DNA of 24,462 nt from a virus. Positions 339-23,033 of this stretch are shown piece after piece (the first letter of the stretch is position 1; each line of letters begins with the position of its first letter). Location: positions 1-24,462 of the IMG/VR virus record IMGVR_UViG_3300034020_000564. One strand, 5' to 3'. The notes under the pieces were generated by a model. The model was not told the origin of the DNA. It did no database searches and saw only the letters and a list, made by a program, of their open reading frames with translations. Made by a program: the position numbers and the translations under genes.

Positions 339-575
339 TCATCGAGGTAGCCCGACCAGAATGTCGTAACCCTCCACCCCAAGCTGAGACTCACCAAACG
401 TCTCATCCACGATGTCTGAACGGAAGCACAGCGACAGGTAGCACTCGTCCAACACCGTGTCCTTCGGGATATGCAACCGCTCTACCTCAGCGACCCATGC
501 CAGTACGTCATGGATCGTGGCCTTGTCCTTATCCAGCCCCACAAGAACCAGGGCACTGCTCATTACGCTATCCAT
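339..575 (-). CDS. Hypothetical protein, 78 aa
   Basis: This is the last gene of the leftward region. It is acidic (KDKATIHDVLAWVAEVERLH, then a DIVDETFGES stretch) with mixed helix and strand character, and no motif I recognise. ATG at 575 has GGAG 8 bases upstream, so it is preferred. A second in-frame ATG at 563 overlaps the upstream TAA by one base (TAATG) and is the alternative start, giving 74 aa. Either way it is translationally coupled to the gene before it and ends about 20 bases from the convergent hairpin at 297-317. No function is assigned. Confidence 0.65.
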   Translation of the reverse strand: MDSVMSSALVLVGLDKDKATIHDVLAWVAEVERLHIPKDTVLDECYLSLCFRSDIVDETFGESQLGVEGYDILVGLPR

Positions 576-2896: not shown

Positions 2897-3042
2897 CGAC
2901 GTTCCCTCCGTCCTGTAAGTATCTGATCAGTCCTACGCACCCTGTGCTGGCCTGCCCGATGCCATCGGTACTCATCGAGTACGGCCCAGGTCACAGGGAA
3001 GGCGAAAAACACAATGAACACAAGGAAAATTAGGTCCCACAT
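2893..3042 (-). CDS. Small membrane protein, 49 aa
   Basis: ATG 3042 shares its A with the preceding TGA (TGATG). The product opens MWDLIFLVFIVFFAFPVTWA, a single strongly hydrophobic helix at residues 2-22. A basic tail follows (EYRWHRAGQHRVRRTDQILTGRRERR). By the positive-inside rule the tail should be cytoplasmic. It ends in an ATGA overlap with the CxxC gene. The role is unknown; a one-span protein with a basic cytoplasmic tail in an early operon might act at the host membrane, which is speculation. Confidence 0.65.
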   Translation of the reverse strand: MWDLIFLVFIVFFAFPVTWAVLDEYRWHRAGQHRVRRTDQILTGRRERR

Positions 3043-3482
3043 CACACACCTACCAGGGTGTCTGTGTAGCGGAACGTCCCGATCATGCGCCAGGGCTGCG
3101 AACCCTCGGGCAGGCCTTCCAGTACCGTCAGCGTGCGCGGTCCCAGCACATAGACGTACTCGATCCACAACGGATCAGCCGTGGTATCGCTCTCCATTTG
3201 GGCACCGCCTGCCTGTTCCAGCGTGTATGCCACGCCGTACCCCGGTCGAGCGATAAAGCGCCCGTCTGAATAGATGCCTTCCAGCTCGGGAGTCTGGTCA
3301 GGATCCAAGTGCGACCAGCCGTAGTTCGTGCGGATAACGGTGTCAATGACAGGCACGATCCCGTGGCGCTTGATCAGCTCCATGAGGACAGGCACTCGCG
3401 CGCCCGGTCCCCCATCCCAGTGGACATAGCGTCCTAGCCACCCATCACCAGCAGGGATGGCAACGATTGAGCGTGTAGCCAT
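3042..3482 (-). CDS. Conserved phage hypothetical protein, 146 aa
   Basis: The start at ATG 3482 is supported by AAAGGAAT 6 bases upstream; an upstream GTG at 3527 lacks this. The N-terminus MATRSIVAIPAGDGWLGRYV followed by HWDGGP matches a protein I recall from many actinophages, of unknown function. The family typically has this GRYVHWDG signature and about 140-150 residues, as here. It later contains ARPGYGVAYTLEQAGGAQM and a hydrophobic strand (LWIEYVYVLG) followed by a mostly beta C-terminus. It leads the four-gene overlap run and is preceded by a 93-bp leader containing a short perfect dyad at 3553-3564. Confidence 0.75.
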   Translation of the reverse strand: MATRSIVAIPAGDGWLGRYVHWDGGPGARVPVLMELIKRHGIVPVIDTVIRTNYGWSHLDPDQTPELEGIYSDGRFIARPGYGVAYTLEQAGGAQMESDTTADPLWIEYVYVLGPRTLTVLEGLPEGSQPWRMIGTFRYTDTLVGV

Positions 3483-3575
3483 TGTCTTATTCCTTTCATC
3501 TATGATGCGCGTATCCCCTACGGACACCCGCTCTGCACTGTTGTGTAAGTATACCCATAAGGGTCCGACATCGTG
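3483..3575 (-). promoter_or_regulatory. Leader/promoter candidate of the 3482 operon
   Basis: This 93-bp gap precedes the first gene of a four-gene overlap run, so it should hold its promoter or processing site. It contains a perfect dyad, ACCC-ATAA-GGGT (3553-3564 on +), directly followed on the minus strand by TATACTTAC, a plausible -10 hexamer (TATACT). No good -35 is visible 17 bases upstream. Confidence 0.4.
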
Positions 3576-3730: not shown

Positions 3731-4030
3731 TCAGGCCTCCCACAGCTCAGACCAGCCCTCAACAGGGCCACGATCGCCCACACTCTTAACGTAGGCATAC
3801 AGCTCCCGCAATTCCTCACCAGCGTGAGGCCAGTGCCTCTCAGAATCGGCGACGATATGAGGCAAGAGCTGGTATTCGAGCGCGATCCGTACATCCTCGA
3901 CTGTGTAACGCTTATCCCTAGTGGCACCAGTGCTAGCGAACATATAGAGCGCTGATCCCTGGCCCCCGTGCCAGTCGCTAGCGATACGTCGCGCCCGACC
4001 ATCACTGATCCGGCTCTTCACTCTCGGCAT
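3731..4030 (-). CDS. Hypothetical protein, 99 aa
   Basis: ATG 4030 follows a long purine-rich Shine-Dalgarno region (GGAAGGAAGGGAAG) and an upstream hairpin. The N-terminus MPRVKSRISDGRARRIASDW is basic and could bind nucleic acid. The rest is helical, with an acid/aromatic tail (VEGWSELWEA). There is a YTVEDVRIALEYQLLP segment and a WPHAGEELRELYAYVK segment, both probably amphipathic helices. I do not recognise the family. The next gene starts two bases after its stop. Confidence 0.65.
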   Translation of the reverse strand: MPRVKSRISDGRARRIASDWHGGQGSALYMFASTGATRDKRYTVEDVRIALEYQLLPHIVADSERHWPHAGEELRELYAYVKSVGDRGPVEGWSELWEA

Positions 4031-4054
4031 AGCTTCCCTTCCTTCCCTTTAGGT

Positions 4055-4103
4055 AGGTCAAGTGACCTAGTGCAAGGCCTAGAACTAGGCTAGGCCTCAC
4101 ACT
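4055..4103 (-). promoter_or_regulatory. Tandem RNA hairpins upstream of the 4030 gene
   Basis: Read on the minus strand, AGTGTGAGGCCTAG (4103-4090), loop CCTAGTT, and CTAGGCCTTGCACT (4082-4069) pair over 14 positions. Two of these pairs are G-U wobbles that are allowed only in the leftward transcript. A second dyad, AGGTCA-CT-TGACCT (4068-4055), follows directly. The pair lies between the stop at 4125 and the start at 4030 and is related in layout to the elements at 5180-5231 and 5463-5513. Confidence 0.75.
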
Positions 4104-4124
4104 AACCCACTTACCGTGCTGTAA

Positions 4125-4901
4125 CTATGCGCTGACGTATCTAGCGCCTGTGCCATGCGCCACGATGGCTACGTCAACAGCTCGAGGGCTAGCTCCCATG
4201 CGCGTACCAGCGCACGCGCCACAGTCCGAACACTGGAGAGGATTCCTGGCCCTAGTGTTAGCGCATTCCATGACATTAGGGATAGCTCTCAGGTCCGTAC
4301 CCTTAGGCACGACGTAGAAGGAACGGTAACCCTTCCCCCTAGCCTTACGCCTGTCTTCGACACTGTCTGCGCTAGCCATCAGCAGGCGTGCGTAGCCCTT
4401 ATTCACAGTGCGCCACTGGTGTGTGTAGCCAGTCCACCGGGTGGCATGCTTGACCAGTGCAGACAGCACAGCCAGGGGCACCAGTGCGGGATCCCCATAC
4501 GCTCCCAGTCGAATAGTGCGACCCTTCAACATAGGAGCGACCATGGTCGCATCCATGTGCGGATAGCCACCGCGCGCATACTTTCTCCACACAGACTGGG
4601 GAGCTTGACCTACATTGACATAGCAGGCGCGTCCCTGACGCTTACCCTCAGACTGTGTCCCCCGTAGTGGACAGTCCCCACAGATTGCCCGATCAGCATC
4701 CTGGCGGATAGCGTCCAGTGGAGACATATCAGCTCGAAGAATCCACACCTGAGCCATGTCGCCAGTCTTCCTGTTAGCACTGGCCTTGCCTGTGAGGCCT
4801 GTCACGATGGCGACGATAGGGCTACCGTCAATCCTTGACGGGCCCTCCCATATGACAGCGCCATTAGGCCTAGCCACGAAACATTCCCAGCGCTTCGGCA
4901 T
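4125..4901 (-). CDS. Conserved phage Cys-rich protein (DUF7227-like), ~258 aa
   Basis: I recognise the core IWEGPSRIDGSPIVAIVTGL ... KTGDM ... WILRADMSPLDAI as a family common in actinophages and other phages (DUF7227 as I recall), function unknown. Counting from ATG 4901, the family's CxxC lies at C74/C77 with C93 in GRACYVNVGQAP. A C-terminal C213, C224, C227, C230 cluster (CSDCGACAG) precedes RAVDVAIVAHG. These suggest bound metal. The start is uncertain. ATG 4901 overlaps the upstream gene by 32 bases; GTG 4877 gives MARPNGAVIWEG with an 8-base overlap and is a real alternative, while longer readings from 5132 are antisense-like noise over the upstream gene. It ends just before a hairpin leader. 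Confidence 0.78.
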   Translation of the reverse strand: MPKRWECFVARPNGAVIWEGPSRIDGSPIVAIVTGLTGKASANRKTGDMAQVWILRADMSPLDAIRQDADRAICGDCPLRGTQSEGKRQGRACYVNVGQAPQSVWRKYARGGYPHMDATMVAPMLKGRTIRLGAYGDPALVPLAVLSALVKHATRWTGYTHQWRTVNKGYARLLMASADSVEDRRKARGKGYRSFYVVPKGTDLRAIPNVMECANTRARNPLQCSDCGACAGTRMGASPRAVDVAIVAHGTGARYVSA

Positions 4902-5154
4902 CCCCCATGAGGGATGCCACCCCGTCGACATCGTCCCCCAGGATGTCCATAAGTACGCCGCTAGCCATCGCGCGCGCGTTCCCCGTATCCCGCACACAGT
5001 CCAGCTCAGTGACCCCGTAGCTCTCCAGCGCCAGACATCCCCGGCGAGAGAAGGCCGCGCGGACAGTAGTGAAAGGCACGCCGCTAGCGTCGGCCTCATC
5101 CCACAATGAATCGATATCCCAGGGTTCTGCACAGCGTGGGCAGTAGATATCCAT
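4870..5154 (-). CDS. Conserved small phage protein with CPRC motif, 94 aa
   Basis: The N-terminus MDIYCPRCAEPWDIDSLWDE is the start of a family I recall from actinophages, typically MxxxCPxCGEPWDxDSLH. The middle has an FSRRGCLAL segment and another Cys in ELDCVRD. The end reads MDILGDDVDGVASLMGDAEALGMF, also family-typical. One zinc site made of CPRC plus two further Cys is likely, by inference. The Shine-Dalgarno is GAAGGAAGG upstream of ATG 5154. The DUF7227-like gene begins inside its 3' end, and these two genes are frequent neighbours in my recollection. Function unknown. Confidence 0.78.
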   Translation of the reverse strand: MDIYCPRCAEPWDIDSLWDEADASGVPFTTVRAAFSRRGCLALESYGVTELDCVRDTGNARAMASGVLMDILGDDVDGVASLMGDAEALGMFRG

Positions 5155-5179
5155 AGCCTGTGTTTCCTTCCTTCAATTT

Positions 5180-5231
5180 GGGGCCAGTCCCCCAGCGCGA
5201 CCCCTAGACCAGACAGGCCTAGGAATCACGC
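5180..5231 (-). promoter_or_regulatory. Tandem RNA hairpins upstream of the 5154 gene
   Basis: On the minus strand GCGTGATTCCTAGGCC (5231-5216), loop TGTCT, and GGTCTAGGGGTCGCGC (5210-5195) pair at all 16 positions. Four of these are G-U wobbles possible only in leftward RNA. A second small stem, GGGGG-ACTG-GCCCC (5193-5180 read minus), follows, 4 of 5 pairs. The loop ACTG corresponds to the ACTT/ACTA loops of the sister elements while its arms are changed on both sides. A GAAGGAAGG ribosome site follows. Confidence 0.78.
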
Positions 5232-5245
5232 TCACAGACTGGCAG

Positions 5246-5434
5246 TCATGTAAGTCTGTGCCCGAGCTCAGTAGCCTGTACGGCTTGATTCCATGCCGTG
5301 TCGAAGCCGCGCAAATAGGCCCGGTCTAGAAGCTCTCGCGCCCCTTCCCAGATAGCCACTACCAGCACGGGCGACAGGATGATCGCCAGATATAGAGCCA
5401 GGCCCTGCCACACAGACAGATCACTACTAGGCAT
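5246..5434 (-). CDS. Small single-pass membrane protein, 62 aa
   Basis: ATG 5434 is preceded by GGGGAGGAAG, an excellent ribosome site. Residues 6-32 (VWQGLALYLAIILSPVLVV and on) are one long hydrophobic helix, followed by an amphipathic charged segment, EGARELLDRAYLRGFDTAWN. It is probably a one-span membrane protein with a cytoplasmic C-terminus. It lies between two hairpin leaders and so may be expressed as its own unit. Its TGA stop lies inside the conserved TTACATGA sequence that precedes the next hairpin. Function unknown. Confidence 0.65.
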   Translation of the reverse strand: MPSSDLSVWQGLALYLAIILSPVLVVAIWEGARELLDRAYLRGFDTAWNQAVQATELGHRLT

Positions 5435-5462
5435 AGCTTCCTCCCCTTCATATGTCGGTTCT

Positions 5463-5513
5463 AGGTCTAGTGACCTAGCGCCATCCCTAGGCCCTCAGGC
5501 CTAGGGATCACGC
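5463..5513 (-). promoter_or_regulatory. Tandem RNA hairpins upstream of the 5434 gene
   Basis: On the minus strand GCGTGATCCCTAGGCC (5513-5498), loop TGAG, and GGCCTAGGGATGGCGC (5493-5478) pair at 15 of 16 positions, one of them a wobble. The second dyad, AGGTC-ACTA-GACCT (5476-5463 read minus), differs from the 4055-4068 dyad by one loop base. It lies between the stop at 5538 and the start at 5434. Confidence 0.8.
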
Positions 5514-5537
5514 TAGCGCACTAGTGCCATGTAAGCA

Positions 5538-5777
5538 TCACGCTATAGCAGAGTCCCCATTAGCTAGGACATATTCGACCAGCTCCCGCCACAGCTCATG
5601 TCTGCCAGGGACAGGTGATGTCTGCTCCCACGGGCCCAGGGACCAGTCCCAGTCCCTCACCTGGACACAGTCAATAGCGCGCCCCCGATAGTAGATATCT
5701 GCCAGGCGTGCCTCATCCTGATACTGGATAAGCCACCCCGGATAGTCCCTATCTTCAACAGTCACAGGGTTACCCAT
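5538..5777 (-). CDS. Hypothetical protein, 79 aa
   Basis: The start is set at ATG 5777 because AAGGAAGG lies 9 bases upstream. An upstream ATG at 5798 would place that ribosome site inside the gene. The product begins MGNPVTVEDRDYPGWLIQYQ and is acidic, rich in Trp and Tyr (VQVRDWDWSLGPWEQTSPV) and probably beta-rich before a C-terminal helix (HELWRELVEYVLANG). No family recognised. It is flanked by hairpins on both sides. Confidence 0.65.
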   Translation of the reverse strand: MGNPVTVEDRDYPGWLIQYQDEARLADIYYRGRAIDCVQVRDWDWSLGPWEQTSPVPGRHELWRELVEYVLANGDSAIA

Positions 5778-5804
5778 GATTACGCATCCTTCCTTCATCT
5801 AGAC

Positions 5805-5868
5805 CTAACCCTTAGGCCTGCCCCACACCTAGACAGGGGCCTAGATGCGAGACAGGCGCAAGGGTTAG
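5805..5868 (-). promoter_or_regulatory. Branched hairpin between the 6059 and 5777 genes
   Basis: Read on +, CTAACCCTT (5805-5813) and AAGGGTTAG (5860-5868) form a perfect 9-bp outer stem. GCCCC (5820-5824) with GGGGC (5836-5840) can form an inner one, or TAGGCC (5813-5818) with GGCCTA (5838-5843) as an alternative. The structure includes the TAA stop of the upstream gene, so it could end that transcript or set the translation of the next. It shares the AGGCCTAG vocabulary of the three other leaders but not their exact layout. Confidence 0.6.
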
Positions 5869-6930: not shown

Positions 6931-8811
6931 TTGGCTGCAAGTTCGGCTGGCAGGAAGCGGAATGACAATCCGGCTGAGGCGAAGAAGCGGTTTTTGAGTT
7001 TCTTGTCGGAGGGCCGCACGATTAATGATGCGCTGGCCCAGGCGGGTCGGACGCGGACGACGTATGAGGCGTGGCGGCGGCAGGATCCGCAGTTCGCGGC
7101 TGATGCGGACCGGATCCGGCAGATGCGTGTCGGGGCGCAGATGGTGCGCGGCGAGGAACTGACTTTCTCAGAGTTCTCTGAGAGGTATTTGGACGCCAAG
7201 GTGTTCCCGCACATGCAGAACGTGGTGGATCTGATCGAGGGGAATGACCCGAGCTGGCGTCATGCGGGGATGACGTATGAGCCGGGTGAGCGGGATCTGC
7301 TGATCGTGAATATGCCCCCTGAGCATGCGAAGACGACGAGCGTGACGATCAACTATGTCACCTACCGGATTTGTATGGATCCGAATATTCGGGTGATCGT
7401 GGTGTCGAAGACGATGGATATGGCGAAGAAGATGCTGTATGCCATTAAGACGCGCCTGACGCATCCGAAGTATGCGGAGATGATCGCGAACTATGCCCCG
7501 GTGGGCGGGTTTGAGAAGAACTCTGAGGCGTGGAATCAGAACATGATCTACATCTCGGACGATGCACGCGATTCGGGCGAAAAGGACCCTACGGTTCAGG
7601 CGCTGGGTATCCGTGGGCATATCTATGGTGCCCGTGCTGATCTGATCATCATGGATGACTGCGTGGATTTGACGAACGCCCACGAGTTCGAGAAGCAGAT
7701 TGACTGGTTGCAGTCCGAGGTGATTTCTCGTATCTCTTCTACGGGTGCCTTGCTGGTGGTGGGGACCAGGCTGGCGTCTAAGGATCTGTATTCGGAGATC
7801 CGTGAGCCGCAGCGGTATCCCGATGAGGTCAGCCCGTGGACGTACCTGGCGATGCCTGCCTTGTTGGATGCTGCGGACACCCCTGAGGAGTGGGTGACGC
7901 TGTGGCCTAGGTCGAATCAGCCGGAGCCTGGGGTGAAGGGCCGCGATGCGGAACCGGATGCTGATGGCCTGTATCCGAAGTGGGATGGGCCGCGTCTGGC
8001 GAAGAAGAGGGCGCGGGTGAGCCCGAGAGCATGGGCTCTGGTGTACCAACAGCAGCAGGTTGCTGATGAGGGCATCTTCATGGCTGAGGCTCTACGGGCT
8101 TCGATCAATGGCAATCGCATGACCGGGTTGATGCCGCGTGGCATGGTGAACTGCCGCCCTGAGGGGATGGATGGGCTGATATGTGTAGCTGGCTTGGACC
8201 CGGCAATGGCGGGGCACACAGCATCGGTAGTGATCGGCTTGGATCCGTCCACACAGAAACGCTACGTCTTGGACATTTGGAACAAGGCTGCGATGACACC
8301 GGACCAGATCAGGGATCTGATCAGGGAGTGGACCACTAAGTACGGTGTCGTGGAGTGGCGTGTGGAGAAGAACGCCTTCCAGTCGATGCTGACGCAGGAC
8401 CGTGAGGTGCGCGAGTACCTGGCGGGTGCTGGCGCGATCTTGCGGGAACACTTCACTGGATCCAATAAGCATGATGTGGATTTCGGTGTCGCCTCTATGA
8501 CCACGTTGTGGCATGGCTGGCAGGACAAGCATCAGATGATTGAGCTGCCGTCCACGGCGATCAGCGAGTCAGCGAAAGCCATGATTGAGCAGTTGCTCAT
8601 TTGGCACCCTGCCGCACCTAAGACTCAGAAGACCGACATTGTGATGGCGTTGTGGTTCGCAGAGCTTGCGTGCCGTGACCGAATCGCGGCGATGACGAAC
8701 TTCTCCCGCTCCCATGTGAATAACCCGTTTGCCACACGTTTCGACCGTTCCACTCGGGCGACGGTGGACTTGAACGAGTTTGAACGTAATCGAATGTTCG
8801 TAACACTGTAG
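6931..8811 (+). CDS. terL: Terminase large subunit with N-terminal HTH, 626 aa
   Basis: This is the ATP-driven packaging motor and headful/cos nuclease. Residues ~27-50 (RTINDALAQAGRTRTTYEAW) form an HTH like those of small terminase subunits. The ATPase has a variant Walker A at 128-136 (MPPEHAKTT), Walker B at 238-243 (LIIMDD) and a VVGTRL coupling motif at 276-281. The RNase H-like nuclease has D423 (AGLDPAM), E479 (RVEKNAF) and D569 (KTDIVMAL), the expected acidic triad. The start is TTG 6931 with GAGGAG just upstream. No separate small terminase gene is seen beside it. The portal gene follows after 8 bases. Confidence 0.95.
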   Translation: MAASSAGRKRNDNPAEAKKRFLSFLSEGRTINDALAQAGRTRTTYEAWRRQDPQFAADADRIRQMRVGAQMVRGEELTFSEFSERYLDAKVFPHMQNVVDLIEGNDPSWRHAGMTYEPGERDLLIVNMPPEHAKTTSVTINYVTYRICMDPNIRVIVVSKTMDMAKKMLYAIKTRLTHPKYAEMIANYAPVGGFEKNSEAWNQNMIYISDDARDSGEKDPTVQALGIRGHIYGARADLIIMDDCVDLTNAHEFEKQIDWLQSEVISRISSTGALLVVGTRLASKDLYSEIREPQRYPDEVSPWTYLAMPALLDAADTPEEWVTLWPRSNQPEPGVKGRDAEPDADGLYPKWDGPRLAKKRARVSPRAWALVYQQQQVADEGIFMAEALRASINGNRMTGLMPRGMVNCRPEGMDGLICVAGLDPAMAGHTASVVIGLDPSTQKRYVLDIWNKAAMTPDQIRDLIREWTTKYGVVEWRVEKNAFQSMLTQDREVREYLAGAGAILREHFTGSNKHDVDFGVASMTTLWHGWQDKHQMIELPSTAISESAKAMIEQLLIWHPAAPKTQKTDIVMALWFAELACRDRIAAMTNFSRSHVNNPFATRFDRSTRATVDLNEFERNRMFVTL

Positions 8812-21273: not shown

Positions 21274-21352
21274 GGGGGTGAATGGATAGCGGGACTGTAA
21301 AGCCTCACGAAGGACACAGACTCAGACACGGGTTCGATTCCCGTCACCTCCA
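21274..21352 (+). tRNA. Degenerate tRNA-like sequence
   Basis: GGGGGTG (21274-21280) pairs with CACCTCC (21345-21351), a 7-bp acceptor stem with one wobble. ACGGG-TTCGATT-CCCGT (21328-21344) is a perfect T arm with the invariant loop sequence. The 3' end reads ACCC rather than ACCA. CTGTAAA fits a tRNA-Tyr (GTA) anticodon loop, but its stem has only about three good pairs, and the 5' half of the D stem is missing. It is probably a decayed tRNA, or a tRNA-derived attP-like core. Confidence 0.45.
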
Positions 21353-21365
21353 CCCACAACCGGAT

Positions 21366-22991: not shown

Positions 22992-23033
22992 CCTGTAGGG
23001 GTCACCTCAAATAGTGGGGGTGGCCCCTACAGG
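22992..23033 (+). terminator. Strong hairpin terminator after capsid gene
   Basis: CCTGTAGGGGTCACC (22992-23006) and GGTGGCCCCTACAGG (23019-23033) pair over 15 positions, one a G-U wobble, with a 12-base loop. There is no T run after it, so it is probably partial and sets the drop in expression between capsid and the genes downstream. It may also protect the capsid mRNA 3' end. Confidence 0.8.

Follow-up and report, generated by a model that had tools for sequence, protein, structure and literature searches.

Long leader hairpins conserved as RNA structure before leftward early genes in a probable phage genome fragment and its relatives

Almost all of the larger gaps between leftward early genes in the window contain long hairpins that are under selection as RNA structure in the leftward transcripts. 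These elements are cis-acting RNA leaders, as evident from their structure, strand, position, and conservation. The window analysed here is the whole IMG/VR virus record IMGVR_UViG_3300034020_000564 (24,462 bases), which is probably a phage genome fragment. Its small early genes are located on the leftward strand from ~6137 to the left end, passing the integrase at 1410–2189, and a rightward block with terminase, portal, and capsid genes starts at 6931. A megablast search of the window against phage records gave no match, and a terminase scan over prokaryote genomes likewise gave none, so that the host could not be named.

Four long hairpins, E1 to E4, of about 23–30 pairs each, are found on the leftward strand. 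Each lies between the stop codon of the upstream gene and the Shine-Dalgarno sequence of the next, and ends 25–32 nt before the next ATG. The stems are composed of paired segments split by 1x1 or 2x2 mismatches, which are mostly G·G. E1 (4059–4113, minus strand; 23 pairs, one G·G mismatch) follows the stop codon of a phrog_2554-like gene (4125–4898) and precedes gene 3731–4030, whose ATG is 28 nt downstream and whose ribosome site reads AAAGGGAAGGAAGGGAA (4034–4050, minus strand). E2 (5183–5243, minus strand; 26 pairs, two G·G mismatches) precedes gene 4870–5154, with the ATG again 28 nt downstream and the ribosome site GAAGGAAGGAAA at 5162–5175 (minus strand). E3 (5467–5524, minus strand) has 23 Watson-Crick pairs and one G-U pair, interrupted by 2x2 and 1x1 mismatches, and is located 32 nt before the ATG of gene 5246–5434 (ribosome site GAAGGGGAGGAA, 5438–5450, minus strand). 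The longest, E4 (5805–5868, minus strand), spans 30 positions, with 23 Watson-Crick pairs, 6 G-U pairs, and one C·C mismatch; its 5' arm contains the stop codon of the upstream gene, and the ATG of gene 5538–5777 is at 5777, 27 nt downstream (ribosome site GAAGGAAGGA, 5786–5796, minus strand).

At a hairpin score of at least 14, E1 to E4 were the only hairpins on the leftward strand of the whole window, and five first-order Markov versions of the window yielded no hairpin scoring at least 15. The original prediction had named E1, E2, and E3, with stems of 14–16 pairs. All three were found at the predicted positions on the leftward strand, but their stems are considerably longer than claimed once the mismatch-separated segments are included, and the stronger E4 had been missed. 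A possible fifth element (3500–3534, minus strand, before gene 3042–3482; ~11 pairs, G·G mismatch) is weak and not established. This weak leader, GTAGGGGATACGCGCA...ATGAAAGGAA, is common to the window and to contig L044 (~370–400, minus strand), and different genes seem to stand behind it in the two.

The strand on which these hairpins act was assessed by re-detecting hairpins with a neutral score, in which G-U and A-C were treated alike. The 686 control hairpins from other loci had 1001 G-U and 1000 A-C combinations, while the four stems of the window, read on the leftward strand, have 15 and 0, respectively (p about 4e-4). Seventeen elements on eight contigs (the window, L004, L016, L044, L022, L024, L025, and L029) have 76 G-U and 0 A-C; the nominal p of 5e-18 for this set is overstated, as the elements are not all independent. 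The base composition of the leaders alone predicts a G-U:A-C ratio of about 1.45:1, the expectation against which the 15 to 0 of the window was judged. A clade-A covariance model scored E1 to E3 at 60–66 bits on the leftward strand and 20–37 bits on the opposite strand; these same elements, read leftward, were themselves part of its training set. A ribosome site and start codon follow within 12–50 nt for 12 of 12 strong hairpins of the window, L004, L016, and L044 on the RNA-favoured strand, and for 0 of 12 on the other strand. The group L083–L086 had no such case on the favoured strand and 2 on the opposite one, which is probably due to GGGGG-type ribosome sites beyond the search pattern, and these contigs were left out of the support for orientation.

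Covariation provides the second line of evidence. Alignment A1, composed of 10 elements in one register from the window, L004, L016, and L044, has 86% of its cells paired, as compared with 31–42% in slid-register controls. Compensatory changes on both sides occur in 13 of its 30 pairs, a level matched by 0 of 500 shuffles, and RNAalifold predicted an identical core structure from this alignment. In alignment A2 (5 elements; second group, L024, L025, and L029), both sides changed in 10 of 31 pairs, again matched by 0 of 500 shuffles. In two sets of orthologous leaders from Streptomyces phages, double-sided changes affect 8 of 24 pairs and 8 of 25 pairs, respectively, and the mismatches keep their positions. 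The outer stems also keep primary sequence (AGTG/CACT and, in A1, an invariant U·G pair), and the arms of the elements share CTAGTG-like words. Together with the G-U/A-C asymmetry, the covariation in A1, A2, and the phage orthologs upholds the originally proposed selection for RNA structure in leftward transcripts.

A covariance search of relatives, which had been suggested as a check, revealed copies not seen before. In L022, the A2-group model identified an element outside its training set (59.5 bits, E 2e-13), and L024 yielded a weaker extra element (E 3e-6). Searches of the whole records of the other terminase relatives with the clade-A model gave no hits. A pattern of 23 bases taken from the 3' arm of clade B matched already known contigs only, and the early proteins encoded behind the hairpins, used as queries, gained no further contigs.

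A second, smaller dyad competes with the long hairpin. It forms between the outer 3' arm of the long hairpin, which serves as its 5' arm, and the linker leading to the ribosome site, which serves as its 3' arm; only one of the two structures can therefore form at a time. The dyad had been described previously as a separate second structure, but the overlap makes the two alternative folds. The small dyads on the minus strand are TAGGTC-ACTT-GACCTA in E1 (4053–4068), where the 5' arm coincides with the outer 3' arm of E1, TGGGG-GACTGG-CCCCA in E2 (5180–5195), and CTAGGTC-ACTA-GACCTAG in E3 (5461–5478). For E2 and E3, the structure predicted after in silico removal of the 5' arm of the long hairpin was the small dyad. 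Across 53 leaders, the best pairings between arm and linker total 264, as compared with 216 ± 8.4 when linkers were permuted among leaders (maximum of 249 in 1000 permutations; z about 5.7), and this competition is conserved across leaders. The arms of the small dyad vary on both sides, as had been noted; across the leaders they read AGGTC/GACCT, AGGGC/GCCCT, GGGGG/CTCCC, and GGCCT/GGGCC. An ACT[AGT] loop is found repeatedly in the group of the window and in some Streptomyces phage leaders.

The leaders extend to cultured phages. The nearest named terminase relatives are Streptomyces Beephvirinae, at about 48–49% identity, and leader hairpins occur in Manuel, Immanuel3, FlowerPower, WRightOn, Abafar, Stella, RosePharie, and Zeigle. 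Manuel and Immanuel3 have the genome layout of the window, and most of their sizeable leftward early gaps contain a segmented hairpin ahead of the ribosome site. The eight Beephvirinae genomes have 75 gaps of 30 bases or more, and the neutral detector found a hairpin in 57 of these (G-U 125, A-C 49), a count that takes in weak hairpins, fixed A·C mismatches, and nearly identical genomes. The Beephvirinae leaders resemble those of the window in genome layout and in their location ahead of leftward early genes; their stems are likewise segmented by mismatches at fixed positions, and a small dyad precedes the ribosome site. They differ in stem sequences and in the mismatches themselves. Strong leader hairpins are also present in L083–L085, L087, and L089, whose terminases are 48–72% identical. 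In contrast, L003, L006, L011, L013, and L018, with terminases 83–99% identical to that of the window, have no such hairpins, and have mostly short gaps and different ribosome sites. Since these phages do without them, the elements are not essential to such phages. The idea of a family-wide element accordingly holds for the copies in relatives and in cultured Beephvirinae, but not for several of the phages closest by terminase. Leaders and genes are not strictly linked, since the window and L004, L016, and L044 have different genes behind their hairpins.

The product of the gene upstream of E1 (P0001; 4125–4898, minus strand) matches phrog_2554, of unknown function (E 5e-77), which has relatives in numerous phages of Mycobacterium, Gordonia, Klebsiella, and the Roseobacter group. 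Long intergenic hairpins near phrog_2554 genes of other phages (L116, 5730–5781; L117, 6342–6399; L107, 5104–5155) are possibly independent instances of the same habit. L091 (3125–3334) has three successive perfect inverted repeats of 15–16 bp that are spaced by ~87 bases and differ in sequence.

Judging from the shape and place of the elements, we regard RNase III-type processing leaders as the most likely reading, at about an even chance, with the small dyad serving as the 5' end of the product. Gene order suggests that the leftward early genes are co-transcribed as a polycistronic mRNA, in which each leader would fold as a long irregular hairpin of about 23–30 pairs. Host RNase III would cut this hairpin, a site specific for double-stranded RNA, in the style of T7 early mRNA, splitting the transcript into separately translated messages. 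With the 5' arm lost through the cut, the outer 3' arm would re-pair with the linker before the ribosome site, and the downstream message would then begin with the resulting small hairpin of 5–7 bp, which would shield it from decay that depends on the 5' end and keep its ribosome site accessible. Several observations count against processing: E4 lacks a small dyad, in silico removal of the 5' arm increased the predicted exposure of the ribosome site for E2 and E4 with no such rise for E1 or E3, and L003, L006, L011, L013, and L018 do without the elements. The outer stems keep more sequence than a generic double-strand cutter needs, and a specific RNA-binding protein could be involved.

The mutual exclusivity of two conserved folds also suits a bistable switch that acts on translation or attenuation without cutting, which we hold to be about half as probable as processing. 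The choice of fold would be made by ribosomes as they complete the upstream gene, or by a protein of the phage or host, and would determine how the following gene is translated. In E2 and E4, the stop codon of the upstream gene is within or beside the 5' arm, and the conserved AGTG/CACT and ACT[AGT] loop suggest specific recognition. However, the ribosome site is outside both hairpins, and its predicted exposure shifts without a consistent direction. Sequestration of the ribosome site as a means of translational control was unsupported by the predicted exposure after removal of the 5' arm. In a broader form, to which we likewise give a minor share of probability, a phage-wide class of bistable leader RNAs, with a long and a competing small hairpin that often has the loop ACU[AGU], would provide a common post-transcriptional switch operated by a phage or host factor, in phages ranging from metagenomic ones to Streptomyces Beephvirinae.

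It is unlikely that the hairpins are simply stabilisers or decay barriers at 5' or 3' mRNA ends, blocking exonucleases whichever enzyme makes the end. The stems are long, G+C-rich, and intergenic, with one per gap, and the leaders are retained although the genes behind them differ, as would suit such barriers; a plain barrier, though, needs neither conserved mismatches nor an alternative dyad. There is very little probability left for inverted repeats that act as DNA, as operator or promoter sites similar to the extended start-associated sequences (ESAS) of cluster K mycobacteriophages. CTAGTG-like words in the arms and the position before start codons would fit, but the DNA operator or ESAS reading was rejected on the 76 G-U to 0 A-C asymmetry and the compensatory changes on both sides. 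Scanning the elements for an E. coli-type promoter consensus and checking them for U-tract terminators gave no match, the former also speaking against DNA sites. Intrinsic terminators or a mobile palindromic repeat family, the least probable of all, would account for strong stems within intergenic gaps, but the stems always face a ribosome site that follows them at an almost constant spacing, and the differences between homologous copies are paired changes; the terminator reading was dropped for lack of a T tract after the stems.

Two other RNAs were observed in the rightward part of the window. An RNA of 82–90 nt (window 21274–21355, plus strand; L194 4421–4502, L195 3186–3267, and L197 2428–2517) matches both ends of tmRNA (RF00023, 42–50 bits) and lacks the message part. 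It is located upstream of the capsid gene, at the position of the tRNA array of Beephvirinae, and is present in three of four relatives. Its acceptor stem has an apparent G3-U70 pair, which is the mark of alanine identity, and the L197 copy is called tRNA-Pro by ARAGORN; the RNA may mimic tmRNA or be an unusual tRNA. A hairpin of 15–17 pairs follows the capsid gene (window 22992–23033, plus strand; L195 1511–1552, minus strand; L197 4229–4266, plus strand), right before the GGAAGG-type ribosome site of the next gene, with paired changes between relatives. It occurs also in phages without early leaders and may be a late-gene counterpart of the early leaders.

To our knowledge, little is known about post-transcriptional control in actinobacteriophage early operons, and in these leaders the selection on RNA structure is clear and can be measured at one gene after another. 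Cultured phages carry them, making the mechanism testable in Streptomyces. If processing is correct, T7-type transcript processing would be extended to phages of Actinobacteria; should the competing hairpin instead prove to be a genuine switch, it would exert shared control over many phage genes at once.

The open-licence literature yielded no earlier description of these elements, which is not in itself proof of novelty. No Rfam 15 family matches the hairpin region, the sole match in the window being tmRNA at 21274–21355. Two papers on Beephvirinae (PMC11536984 and PMC9753666) do not mention hairpins or intergenic elements, and the hairpins are unannotated in the Beephvirinae records fetched. 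The original prediction likened the elements to the start-associated sequences (SAS) and ESAS of cluster K mycobacteriophages, and the likeness in layout stands: both recur within a genome, contain inverted repeats, and directly precede the starts of a subset of non-structural genes. The likeness goes no further than layout. ESAS are imperfect 17-bp inverted repeats with conserved half sites; the repeats keep a sequence consensus, and departures from it do not support RNA pairing (PMC3203893), whereas the elements here covary as RNA and have the G-U asymmetry. ESAS contain SigA-like promoters (PMC11373665). They are paired with the 13-bp SAS GGGATAGGAGCCC at the start codon, while the leaders inspected here have no SAS and their ribosome sites read GAAGGAAGG and similar. 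Judged by these sequence features, the elements fail to qualify as members of ESAS.

A closer parallel is found in T7, in which R0.3, R0.5, R1, R1.1, and R1.3 are RNase III processing sites of the early mRNA. The elements here have the T7-type layout of a long irregular intergenic hairpin shortly before a ribosome site, in genes whose order suggests co-transcription. With the identical detector, the leader hairpins of T7 genes 0.3, 0.5, 1, and 1.3 end 22–35 nt before the start codon and contain 11 G-U and 1 A-C. The two sets are thus alike as irregular intergenic hairpins of an early transcript, a short distance from the start, rich in G-U and poor in A-C. They differ in length, with 9–17 stem positions in T7 and 17–30 here by the same detector, and in that cleavage here is a proposal. 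The elements also have a conserved competing small dyad, and no sequence in common with the T7 sites was seen. They appear to be a variant, not described before as far as we found, of intergenic processing or leader hairpins.
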